In this document: positions 51,464 through 55,452 of the stretch, in pieces
How the letters are laid out: each line of letters begins with the position of its first letter
How positions within the stretch are numbered: the first letter of the stretch is position 1
Origin: Flavobacteriaceae bacterium PS02337
GTDB taxonomy: Bacteria; Bacteroidota; Bacteroidia; Flavobacteriales; Flavobacteriaceae
Direction of reading: 5' to 3'
NCBI GenBank assembly: GCA_029959285.1
Contig: JASCOE010000004.1
Location: forward strand, 62,001-126,000
Length of the DNA: 64,000 nt
The notes under the pieces: model-generated
The model's database searches: none
Seen by the model: the letters and a program-made list of their open reading frames with translations, nothing else
Told to the model about the DNA's origin: nothing
Position numbers and translations under genes: made by a program

Positions 51464-51689
51464 TTTGGAGTATTGTATTGTTTGAGTAGTAAAAGTAGGG
51501 AAAAATGTTTTTAACCGCAAAGTTCTATTGGTTTGTGTTAATGTAGAGGCGCACTGCAGTGCGTCTTCGCTATTTATATTTTAACGCAAAATTCGCAAAG
51601 GATTTCGCAAAGAACGGGAAGTTTTATCATAGAAATCGAAATAACAAGATTGTGAAAACTGTAATTCTAAAAGTTCTTTTGAAGACGAT

Positions 51690-51769
51690 TTGCGTGAGGG
51701 ATAGAAGTGGAAAGCCCACAGCCTGACGAAGGAAGTGCGAGGACTTGTAGCGGATAGCCCGACCCGGAG
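51690..51769 (+). repeat. dispersed intergenic palindromic element, copy E
   Basis: Carries GGATAGAAGTGGAAAGCCC and GTAGCGGATAGCCCGACCC ends like copies A-D, with a different interior (CTGACGAAGGAAGTGCGAGG) in place of the CCTTTTGTG hairpin. Confidence 0.8.
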
Positions 51770-52138
51770 TATAGGGGGTAAAACAAAAAGTATAAAACCA
51801 CTCAAACCAAAAAAGGTCGAAAAAACCCAGTAAAATCAAGACTTCAACCCTAAAAAAGTCCGAATAGCAACTCAAAACGAAAAGTATTTTTACTACCATT
51901 GGGTATAATTCGACTACCATTTTTTAAACAGTTTAAATGCTTATTGATTAACGGAGTACCATCCTATCAATAAATATACTCATAAAAGCGATTAAAGCCC
52001 TGTAAAATTAAACAATTACAACAAATCAGTAGTTACTGTACAAGCTTTAAAAAGCCTTTAAAAACCATTTAAAGGAGGTTTAATTATTGTTACTAATGGA
52101 AAAGGAAGAAAACTAAAAATAACTTACTTTTTAATTTT

Positions 52139-52686: not shown

Positions 52687-53526
52687 CTAGTATTCACCTT
52701 TTGCTATCAAATTATAGATATTTAGTTTTAAATCTGTCTTACAGTTATCATAAGTTTTTAAAGATGGTTCTGCTTCTGCCAGATAAGGTTCTGCGTTAAT
52801 CCATTTTCTAAATATTTCAGGCTTACAATTATCATGAATCAATCCATCCAAGAACATTTTCCTGTATATGAAACTATAATCAGCTAATTTACTTTTGCTG
52901 TCTTTAAAAATAGCGTGTAGCTTCCTAAAAATGATATATGCATCTAAATTCATAAATATTTCAGGATGTGGATTTTCAGTTATTGTATCTGCCGGAACGT
53001 TTTTGTTCAATTCTTGACCCGGTTTTAAAAAATGTATTTTTTCATTATTTATTGAAACATCAATATTATAGCGTCCAAGATTAATTTTAAATTGTGCTAA
53101 CTCTTTTTTTAAAGTGGACAATGTAATTGTTTTAGAACTTGCATCCTCTTCTAATTTTCTCTTAACATTTTTAGCTACCCACTCCTTTTCATATTCATCT
53201 GAAAAACCATTCATTTTTCTAAAGGATTCTATTCTGTCTTTTTCCTTTGTTCTTATTTGATTTTCAAATTCTTTTTCAGATAAATCTTTCTTGTTTTCTA
53301 TTGCAATTAAACAATTAAAAATGCAAACAATTCCTTCTTTTAGAAATGCTACCTCATTTAAATTAAAATCTTGCTCAACTTTCTGTAAGTAAAGTTGATT
53401 ATAAGTAAACTGATCAGAAATATATGGACAGGAAAGACCTAATTTATTTAATCTATTTAATGTAATTTTTCTATGAGTAAATAATCGCATTAAATTTATT
53501 TCGCTTTTTGAAGGGTAATAATCCAT
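52687..53526 (-). CDS. prophage accessory protein of unknown function
   Basis: Not recognised. The ATG at 53526 gives 279 residues (DYYPSKSEINLMRLFTHRK); a GTG eight codons earlier is possible but falls inside the 18-bp repeat. The protein is soluble and charged, with no signal. The C-terminal part (KLADYSFIYRKMFLDGLIHD, then ADYSF-like Y/F-rich helix) is faintly like RteC-type proteins of Bacteroidota mobile elements; this is a weak resemblance. It is the gene closest to the presumed left phage end and ends at a long hairpin. Confidence 0.6.
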   Translation of the reverse strand: MDYYPSKSEINLMRLFTHRKITLNRLNKLGLSCPYISDQFTYNQLYLQKVEQDFNLNEVAFLKEGIVCIFNCLIAIENKKDLSEKEFENQIRTKEKDRIESFRKMNGFSDEYEKEWVAKNVKRKLEEDASSKTITLSTLKKELAQFKINLGRYNIDVSINNEKIHFLKPGQELNKNVPADTITENPHPEIFMNLDAYIIFRKLHAIFKDSKSKLADYSFIYRKMFLDGLIHDNCKPEIFRKWINAEPYLAEAEPSLKTYDNCKTDLKLNIYNLIAKGEY

Positions 53527-53538
53527 ATTAAGATAGGT

Positions 53539-53556
53539 AAGTATACCCACTTTACA
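53539..53556. repeat. 18-bp inverted repeat, left copy
   Basis: AAGTATACCCACTTTACA here; its exact reverse complement is at 54528-54545. The two copies bracket the two small membrane-protein genes. Confidence 0.85.
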
Positions 53557-53583
53557 CTAGATTTTCTAGTTTTTTGATGGGTG

Positions 53584-53979
53584 TTATTTGTTTAAAAAGA
53601 TTAACTGATTTCTTAACTCAATTAAAGCATTACTTTGTGTTTCAATCATTTTAAGTAATGTAGCAATATTACTTTTAGTATAAGTTTGATTTTTTAACTC
53701 GTTATAAAGTTTATCTGATAAACTTTTGTCAAATTCATCTTTAGCTATATGAAGAAAATCCTGAAAAGTAATATTAGGATACATTTCTTTATTAGCACCA
53801 TCTTTTTCATCAATATATTTCTGAATTAAAGACTGTACTTCTAAGGATAATGTTTGTGTAGATTTATAAACGGCTAAAAGATTGTTTTTCTCCTCACTAA
53901 CATCAGGCTTAGAATTAAAAGTCTTATGATATGTTAACCAAGCTATAAGTAGACCTGCTATACCTATAAAGACTTCCAT
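53584..53979 (-). CDS. small membrane-anchored protein (accessory cassette)
   Basis: Not recognised. A 131-residue protein with one N-terminal membrane segment (EVFIGIAGLLIAWLTYHKTF) and a cytosolic or periplasmic helical tail likely to be coiled (SEEKNNLLAVYKSTQTLSLE, NIATLLKMIETQSNALIELR). It follows the gene at 54018 by 38 nt on the same strand; both lie between the inverted 18-bp repeats. One-membrane plus helical-tail proteins are common in phage exclusion systems, but no known family is identified. Confidence 0.7.
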   Translation of the reverse strand: MEVFIGIAGLLIAWLTYHKTFNSKPDVSEEKNNLLAVYKSTQTLSLEVQSLIQKYIDEKDGANKEMYPNITFQDFLHIAKDEFDKSLSDKLYNELKNQTYTKSNIATLLKMIETQSNALIELRNQLIFLNK

Positions 53980-54017
53980 AATTTGAATTTTTAAGTTTCT
54001 AGTTTTGTTGGAGCTTT

Positions 54018-54458
54018 TTATTTATAAATTGCTAAATAGTATAAGAAACTCAATGTAACTAAGAATGTAGTTAAAATTGAAAAGAAGGATAGAAGATTAG
54101 TAACACTAATTTTTTTGCCGTGTTTAGTTATTAAATCGAAAGGCTGACTGCAAATAGAAGCTTCGAATCTACTTTTCTCCATTAGTCTGTAATTTATGTA
54201 AATCAAAAACCACAAATTAACAACAGGAATAAGTATTGTCCATCTTGAAACATTTTGTTGTAATTGTGCTAAAGCAAAAAATGCGCCGATTAAAAGATTA
54301 TTGTAATTAGATAAGTTGTCATGGATTCGATCAAAATATTTTAAGATGCCCCTAACTACTTCTTCTTCAGTTCTTTTCCAACGCGCGTCTCTTTCTTCCG
54401 CTTCTTTCTCACTTTGTTCTAAATCTCTTTTTATTTTTTCAATATCAATATCTCCCAT
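54018..54458 (-). CDS. three-helix membrane protein (accessory cassette)
   Basis: Not recognised. A 146-residue protein. A charged N-terminal helix of about 50 residues (KRDLEQSEKEAEERDARWKR) leads to three membrane segments (about 54-68, 73-90 and 121-144; TILIPVVNLWFLIYINYRL is the second). It is the first gene of a two-gene leftward unit with its own promoter, inside the 18-bp inverted repeats. The arrangement suggests a superinfection exclusion or other lysogenic-conversion pair; this is inference. Confidence 0.7.
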   Translation of the reverse strand: MGDIDIEKIKRDLEQSEKEAEERDARWKRTEEEVVRGILKYFDRIHDNLSNYNNLLIGAFFALAQLQQNVSRWTILIPVVNLWFLIYINYRLMEKSRFEASICSQPFDLITKHGKKISVTNLLSFFSILTTFLVTLSFLYYLAIYK

Positions 54459-54475
54459 ATCCCTTATTATTTTCT

Positions 54476-54483
54476 CAAATGTA
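54476..54483 (-). promoter_or_regulatory. -7 promoter box for the accessory membrane-protein pair
   Basis: TACATTTG on the minus strand, an exact TAnnTTTG, about 18 nt before the start. The cassette can be expressed from the prophage by itself. Confidence 0.5.
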
Positions 54484-54527
54484 CTAAAATAAAAAATCTC
54501 TAATTATCTCAGTTTATACTTTTTTGT

Positions 54528-54545
54528 TGTAAAGTGGGTATACTT
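54528..54545. repeat. 18-bp inverted repeat, right copy
   Basis: TGTAAAGTGGGTATACTT, the exact reverse complement of the left copy at 53539-53556. It also holds an imperfect GTAAAG...CTTTTAC dyad. Confidence 0.85.
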
Positions 54546-54678
54546 TTACCTTAAGATAATTTGAATTAGATTATTGAAATTAATTATGCATAACTCAAAA
54601 AAACAGTCTTTTATTAAGGACCGTTGATGTTTTGTTGTTTTTAAAAATGGTATTCAGTTGTTTTTTGGTTCACATAAT

Positions 54679-55452
54679 CTATTGTGGAGCTTCTTCTTTA
54701 TTTTGTAACATGTCATTATAAAACTTTTCTGCCTCCTCTCGTGTTGCTCTAATATTTTTTTCTTTTAATAATTCATGCAACATTGTGATTTTTCTTTGTC
54801 TTTCATTTTCAATAACATCATCGATAAAAAGACCATCTAAAACCCACTTTTTGAATAACTCATAAAACCCCTCATAAGCTGCTTTTCCTTGCTCCATACT
54901 AGATATAAGTAAGGCGTTTAATTTATCCAGATTTACATCTAACTTTTTAAATTTTGCTGTATCACCTTCTATCTGTCTTGTAGGCTCTATAATAGTAAGG
55001 TTTTGTAAAATAAGTCCATAAGTACCTTTGATGTCTGATTTTTTAAATTCGGTAAGCCATTTTGTAATATCATTTGCCAATGGATTACAAAGTTTTTGGC
55101 ACATATCACGTAAATCTTCTATTTTTTTTATATGATATTCTACATCCGGGTAATGTTTTTGATAAGCCTCAACAATCCTAAATATAGGATGATTGTTTGA
55201 AACTTTATAATCATTCTCTTGAGTTAGATATAATTTTGAGTAGTCATTGGTGTATGATTGTTTATCTTCAAAATAGTCACTTGGCAATTTAAAAGTTTCA
55301 GTTAGTCTTTCAATCAGCTGTTTTGATGGCTCAGTTTTTCCTGATTCTAACTGTGCAACATAACTACGCCCAACGCCTATTTTTTCCGCAAATTCAGTCT
55401 GTGTTAACTTTTCAGACTGCCTAACAGCCTTAATTTTATCTTGTAAAAGCAT
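54679..55452 (-). CDS. XRE-family phage repressor
   Basis: A 257-residue repressor. N-terminal HTH (residues of about 17-53; TQTEFAEKIGVGRSYVAQLE then SGKTEPSKQLIERL). The C-terminal part is helical without the S24 peptidase motif of LexA/CI-type repressors, so it is not self-cleaving in the classic way. It is leftward and divergent from the early operon and overlaps the operator region at 55469-55539, so it is the likely immunity repressor. Confidence 0.88.
   Translation of the reverse strand: MLLQDKIKAVRQSEKLTQTEFAEKIGVGRSYVAQLESGKTEPSKQLIERLTETFKLPSDYFEDKQSYTNDYSKLYLTQENDYKVSNNHPIFRIVEAYQKHYPDVEYHIKKIEDLRDMCQKLCNPLANDITKWLTEFKKSDIKGTYGLILQNLTIIEPTRQIEGDTAKFKKLDVNLDKLNALLISSMEQGKAAYEGFYELFKKWVLDGLFIDDVIENERQRKITMLHELLKEKNIRATREEAEKFYNDMLQNKEEAPQ

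Follow-up and report, generated by a model that had tools for sequence, protein, structure and literature searches.

A probable IS1595-derived mobile insertion cassette with two predicted membrane-protein genes in a Mu-like region of a Flavobacteriaceae bacterium

Introduction

The IS1595 family of insertion sequences (IS) is reportedly the subject of a paper by Siguier from 2009. Mobile insertion cassettes (MICs) are already known as a kind of element (PMC3913671 and PMC3129680, in the parts of both sources that were available to us), with MIC231 of Bacillus cereus and mic-qnrD of the Proteeae as described examples (PMC3913671), and IS that carry passenger genes have been termed 'transporter ISs' in the available part of PMC3129680. 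As far as the corresponding part of PMC3913671 describes them, MICs possess two terminal inverted repeats, a cargo that replaces the transposase and a target duplication, while the transposase is expected to be supplied in trans.

The locus presented here lies in a 64,000-nucleotide stretch of DNA from Flavobacteriaceae bacterium PS02337, hereafter the window, whose numbering is used throughout. It has the same architecture, namely terminal inverted repeats of an IS family, other genes in place of the transposase and a target-site duplication. The duplication of mic-qnrD measures 2 bp according to the available part of PMC3913671, in contrast to 8 bp next to IS1595-type ends in our cassette, which further differs from MIC231 and mic-qnrD in that its cargo consists of two unclassified, predicted membrane proteins and that it sits in a Mu-like prophage region. 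It resembles ISApl4 of the IS1595 family, as portrayed in the part of PMC12561309 at hand, in having ends that begin with GG and A/T-rich 8-bp duplications; unlike IS of that family, it has cargo genes and lacks a transposase of its own, whereas its autonomous relatives encode an IS1595 transposase. Three full-length relatives, here called C11, G060 and G345, hold extra ORFs between their ends and are in this respect similar to the 'transporter ISs' of the accessible part of PMC3129680, from which the cassette differs as a transposase-less derivative. Our literature search found no report of such a cassette in Flavobacterium, the two proteins having no names to search by.

Results

A first-pass annotation of the window, made by reading the letters, had drawn attention to an exact 18-bp inverted repeat around two leftward genes, and both parts of this description were borne out. 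The motif TGTAAAGTGGGTATACTT occurs at 53539-53556 on the minus strand and at 54528-54545 on the plus strand, these being its only sites in the window when up to 3 mismatches are allowed (chance mean 0.07; two sites in 0 of 100 shuffles), and the genes, of 131 and 146 aa, are present as ORFs. Absent from that annotation was an exact 8-bp direct repeat, TTAAGATA, immediately outside both ends, which represents a target-site duplication. The 18-bp repeats are the core of longer transposon ends, whose terminal inverted repeats begin with GGTA, and since the 8-bp repeat lies directly outside these extended ends, the element comprises 1,015 bp from 53536 to 54550. The features of the locus are as follows.

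52687..53526, minus strand: 279-aa ORF (ATG at 53526), no known family
53528..53535, no strand: left target-site duplication TTAAGATA, exact match to 54551-54558
53536..54550, no strand: whole cassette, 1,015 bp, very probably a non-autonomous IS1595-type element (ends and 8-bp duplication; flush left 444 bp; transposase ORF absent)
53536..53556, plus strand: left terminal inverted repeat GGTAAGTATACCCACTTTACA, found unchanged at both ends of the G345 transposon and with 1 mismatch at both C11 ends
53584..53979, minus strand: 131-aa cargo gene, an ORF with a predicted N-terminal (membrane) helix and helical body, no known family
54018..54458, minus strand: 146-aa cargo gene, an ORF with three long predicted helices and a conserved KxFDRIHD, no known family
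54476..54483, minus strand: TACATTTG box (CAAATGTA on the plus strand), found by reading, possible promoter -7 element
54528..54550, minus strand: right terminal inverted repeat, the 21 bp of the left repeat plus a 2-nt insertion near the tip
54551..54558, no strand: right target-site duplication TTAAGATA, exact copy of 53528..53535
54679..55452, minus strand: phage-type HTH repressor, across the insertion from the 279-aa ORF

The TACATTTG box corresponds to the promoter-like box of the first-pass annotation, and we take such a box to be a possible Bacteroidota promoter -7 element. A scan for GG[TC]AA/TT[AG]CC ends accompanied by an exact 8-bp duplication found a single such pair in the window, that of the cassette. 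Its ends match ungapped at 13 of 24 bases, a value this low because of the 2-nt insertion in the right end; among 200 dinucleotide shuffles, 33 pairs had 5-bp ends and an 8-bp duplication, none of which also reached 13/24, a threshold chosen post hoc with the cassette pair already known. The ORF list and a profile search gave no transposase ORF inside 53536..54550, and no recombinase ORF is listed between the repeats. The cassette thus has the GG-starting ends and the A/T-rich 8-bp duplication of IS1595 elements, whereas an IS1595 transposase is missing from the cassette itself and encoded by the C11 element with near-identical ends; without a transposase of its own, it is therefore classed as an IS1595 derivative and not as an IS.

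The C11 element, located in the same genome (C11:342049-346333), is a 4,285-bp transposon whose two ends each show 1 mismatch in 21 bp to the left end of the cassette and which has its own 8-bp duplication, AAAAATAT. Its 335-aa transposase matches DDE_Tnp_IS1595 (PF12762, E 1.1e-38) and the NCBIfam model transpos_IS1595 (NF033547, 189 bits with a cut-off of 75). IS66 had been our first idea for the element and was replaced by IS1595 after the transposase search. Contigs C3 and C10 each terminate in one end of a second copy of the C11 element; 127 of 127 and 108 of 108 bases are identical, and the flanks are reverse-complementary across 8 bp. Other end matches in this genome at 3 mismatches did not rise above the background given by the reversed-pattern control (2 forward, 5 reverse), and around the one further IS1595-type transposase, at C55, no such ends were found. 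Of the cassette itself, a single copy was detected in its genome. A DNA search of 300 genomes, scored on two candidates per genome, gave some match in 43, all of them partial or short except in its own genome, and no complete copy among the other 299.

A link to a full transposon came from another genome of the same genus, G345, in which a 7,366-bp element (L090:1993-9358) has the 21 bp of the cassette at both tips, an 8-bp duplication, TAAAATAA, and an IS1595-type transposase gene with 83% DNA identity to that of C11. Its end gene, which reads into the end, encodes a 134-aa homologue 69% identical to the 131-aa protein, and the first 444 bases of the cassette can be aligned, flush with the end, to bases 7366-6925 of the element (75% DNA identity over 456 columns, E 3e-48). 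Given that a 131-aa gene in the G185 chromosome, outside any recognised element, has equally similar DNA (75%), the connection between cassette and transposon rests on the flush end and not on the gene. The G060 element, with neither cargo gene, has 30 of 30 terminal bases in common with the left end of the cassette. The DNA common to the cassette and the three full-length elements consists of the ends and the 131-aa end gene, and no transposase remnant was detected in the cassette. In two autonomous IS1595 transposons the end genes (L009:1111-1482 and L091:6075-6440), of 121-123 aa, were noticed to be similar, the one in L009 having a weak Trypco2 match (E 0.0033) under the cut-off.

More generally, 300 genomes of the genus contained 33 transposase matches at E <= 1e-40, distributed over 25 of them. 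Twenty of the 33 loci were examined, without a control, and in 12 the transposase was flanked by GG-starting ends (at least 15 of 20 bases) and by an exact 8-bp duplication; neither cargo gene occurred at any of the 20 within the stretches examined. The compared elements span 2,129 to 8,553 bp and carry other ORFs, and 17 duplications, including those of the window and of L045 (see below), have a G+C content of 9.6%. The 21-bp end was found with up to 2 mismatches in 13 of 399 genus genomes, as opposed to 3 for a reversed control pattern, so some lone end matches are due to chance; among the stretches examined, paired ends outside the window's genome were seen in G345 and G060 only. In 12 stretches around lone end matches or a second transposase of the own genome, paired ends with a duplication were confined to L090 and L091 and absent from the other 10. 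Scanning 43 loci around homologues of the 146-aa and 131-aa proteins (602,803 bases) revealed one clear end pair, in L045, with none in the reversed-sequence control, as well as one doubtful 11.9-kb pair in L182. A convincing end pair was absent from L048, where an IS1595-like transposase accompanies homologues of both cargo genes. Large IS1595 transposons with long cargo were also observed (L211:2512-11064 and L204:8634-14608), containing by eye Cas2-like, Panacea-like and peptidase-like ORFs.

The first-pass annotation had placed the gene pair in a prophage, and Mu-like genes indeed surround it, profile searches having recovered a repressor, an AntA-type antirepressor, a transposase and a MuB-like ATPase. 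The extent of this region is restricted, however, as host synteny ends at 51525 in comparison with G006 and at 51467 with G015 and G008; it is found again from 66439, 66396 and 66396 onwards, respectively. With these limits at ~51.47-66.40 kb, the Mu-like region is at most ~14.9 kb long. Complete transposable phages are typically larger than ~14.9 kb; this is too short for one, and we regard it as a shortened prophage region in which a full structural module would hardly fit. Within it, the leftward genes follow one another in the order repressor, 146 aa, 131 aa, 279 aa, and the ATG of the 279-aa ORF lies only one base away from the target duplication, so that the insertion displaced the upstream region of this ORF.

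A comparison with related phages, as the first-pass annotation had suggested, showed neither cassette gene in 14 related IMG/VR phage loci, which also lacked the 279-aa gene and the repressor. Nearly all of them start no more than ~2.2 kb from the transposase gene or inside it, and only L054, which reaches 8 kb upstream, covers the spot of the cassette. A search of viral contigs for an empty site, with the repressor and the 279-aa gene as probes, gave none and one partial repressor match, and the 279-aa gene had weak partial matches only, besides its own, in 150 genus genomes; since the flanking genes are without close relatives, an empty site was not demonstrable.

Neither cargo protein could be assigned to a known family, in agreement with the first-pass annotation: both lacked matches at the curated cut-offs of Pfam and NCBIfam and below E 0.05 in PHROGs, and a Foldseek comparison of the 146-aa model with the PDB had no hit at E <= 0.001 (best E 0.78). 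Their description as single-span and three-span membrane proteins seems roughly right, as the AlphaFold model of the 146-aa protein shows three long helices (pLDDT 85.4) and that of the 131-aa protein an N-terminal helix with a helical body (pLDDT 74.5, from only four sequences). Relatives of the 146-aa protein were found at 22 genome-contig loci, and an alignment of the window's protein with 21 of these contains 12 invariant columns, 7 of them in KxFDRIHD. The 131-aa family (E <= 0.001) occurs in 25 of 300 genus genomes and the 146-aa family (E < 1e-16) in 9, a count that leaves out 7 weaker genomes; 6 genomes have both families, compared to 0.75 expected, or 5 compared to 0.64 without the window's genome (Fisher P 1e-4, ignoring relatedness). 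In 4 of these 6 genomes the two genes are unlinked. They are neighbours in the window, in L032 (with a truncated 131-aa gene), in L046 and, 2.2 kb apart, in L048, and one chromosomal hotspot hosts both by eye (L034, L181, L183, L184, L032). Both proteins were absent from the phage (50,697 records) and plasmid collections, and the 131-aa family from viral contigs. A 146-aa homologue was seen at L115:7965-8390, in a Sphingobacterium prophage contig among genes that look structural by eye.

The suggestion that the pair might act in exclusion or defence gained modest support and is still a guess. The proteins themselves match no described anti-phage defence protein family: PADLOC at E 0.01 gave no hit for the 146-aa protein, and for the 131-aa protein nothing beyond a partial MTase_II match (E 0.0018). 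In Pedobacter nanyangensis, a 3,987-bp transposase-less element (L045:2287-6273), whose ends match at 23 of 24 bases and are flanked by the duplication AAAAACCA, contains a 146-aa homologue and AbiLi/PDC-M38-like genes, with an AbiLi-like ATPase (E 1.3e-61) and a DUF3226 protein. We judge these ends to be of IS1595 type from their likeness to other ends; no transposase with ends identical to those of L045 was found. The same element includes an ORF that is Cas2/SinR-like by eye. At L046, a RES-domain gene adjoins the two genes on one side; the protein encoded on the other side has a Cap4-nuclease match just above its cut-off (27.4 bits with a cut-off of 26.2), a STAND match below the cut-off and a PADLOC match of only E 0.0093. 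At L053 a 146-aa homologue directly precedes a type I restriction gene. Two observations speak against a defence role. Among 46 neighbour ORFs selected from the 22 loci, 119 PADLOC families matched at 1e-10, each of the 25 families listed matching one ORF; among these are type I restriction subunits, AbiLi/PDC-M38A and mad5. Many homologues, moreover, stand isolated among genes that look ordinary by eye.

Discussion

These data argue strongly that the segment is a transposase-less, IS1595-derived mobile insertion cassette that arrived by transposition, a reading of which we are highly confident. Against it stand the lack of a demonstrable empty site, the 2-nt insertion in the right end, the single copy and the absence of both cargo genes from the 20 transposase loci examined. 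What had appeared as an odd inverted repeat can now be read as the mark of an insertion for which the same cell encodes a candidate mover, and the cassette illustrates that prophage regions are able to gain genes by transposition. Of the phrase 'insertable or invertible accessory cassette', the first half is upheld by the transposon ends, the 8-bp duplication and the homology to the end of an IS1595 transposon. The second half would mean that site-specific recombination at the 18-bp repeats, which are exact, turns the segment round; a dedicated recombinase is nevertheless missing from the ORFs between them, and the repeats form part of transposon ends flanked by a target duplication, which leaves inversion scarcely credible. 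The annotation had also considered that the motif might recur as an ordinary phage operator. One site does lie just upstream of the 279-aa gene and near the repressor, yet the window holds no further site at up to 3 mismatches and unlinked IS1595 transposons with 8-bp duplications end in this motif, so we give an operator pair of the phage repressor hardly any credence. Slightly better placed, and still very unlikely, is the view that the pair are lysogenic-conversion genes of the phage itself: the repressor adjoins and one homologue resides among structural-looking genes of the Sphingobacterium prophage, whereas the pair is enclosed by transposon ends, has 0 matches in the phage records and is absent from L054, the sole related locus reaching that far upstream.

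A more serious competitor accepts the anatomy of the preferred reading and changes the history. A full IS1595 transposon would have integrated at this site and then shed its transposase along with most of its cargo, the 1-kb unit never having moved as such. The single copy, the 2-nt insertion in the right end and the existence in G345 of a full transposon with a 131-aa end gene are all consistent with such decay in place. Against it speak the lack of any transposase fragment, the restriction of the DNA common with the three full-length elements to the ends and the 131-aa gene, and the existence of L045 as a second transposase-less element with a 146-aa homologue. We consider this history rather unlikely, its probability overlapping with that of the cassette reading, and think it fairly likely that the cassette moved as a 1-kb unit through a transposase made elsewhere, by the C11 element or a close relative.

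For a cassette that moved in this manner, a transposase from the C11 element or a close relative would recognise both ends in trans, and the cassette would then insert between the repressor and the 279-aa gene, at an A/T-rich site of the Mu-like region. The inserted cargo genes would join the leftward row, possibly expressed from their own TACATTTG box, and might provide the host with a membrane-based trait. The 2-nt insertion in the right end could block mobility at present.

As for the cargo, defence or exclusion is our leading guess, on modest evidence, given the many isolated homologues and the 20 transposase loci with neither gene. That the pair confers a membrane-based accessory trait on the host, such as phage exclusion or abortive infection, is a tentative guess. 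A broader and more doubtful proposition is that IS1595 cargo transposons and transposase-less cassettes are widespread in Flavobacterium and Pedobacter and move small modules with membrane and defence functions back and forth between chromosomes and prophages, with the 131-aa/146-aa pair as a new two-gene membrane defence system spread in this way. If the proteins prove protective, IS1595-type cassettes might serve as a simple guide to more small defence modules in Bacteroidota, because their ends and 8-bp duplication can be detected from sequence alone.

At the left margin of the Mu-like region, an additional G015 match of 104 bp, reaching to 51769, falls within a multi-copy repeat. This intergenic sequence of ~100 bp (51669-51770) has many partial copies, 72-97% identical, in its own and other genomes of the genus and is perhaps a repeat family or a small element.
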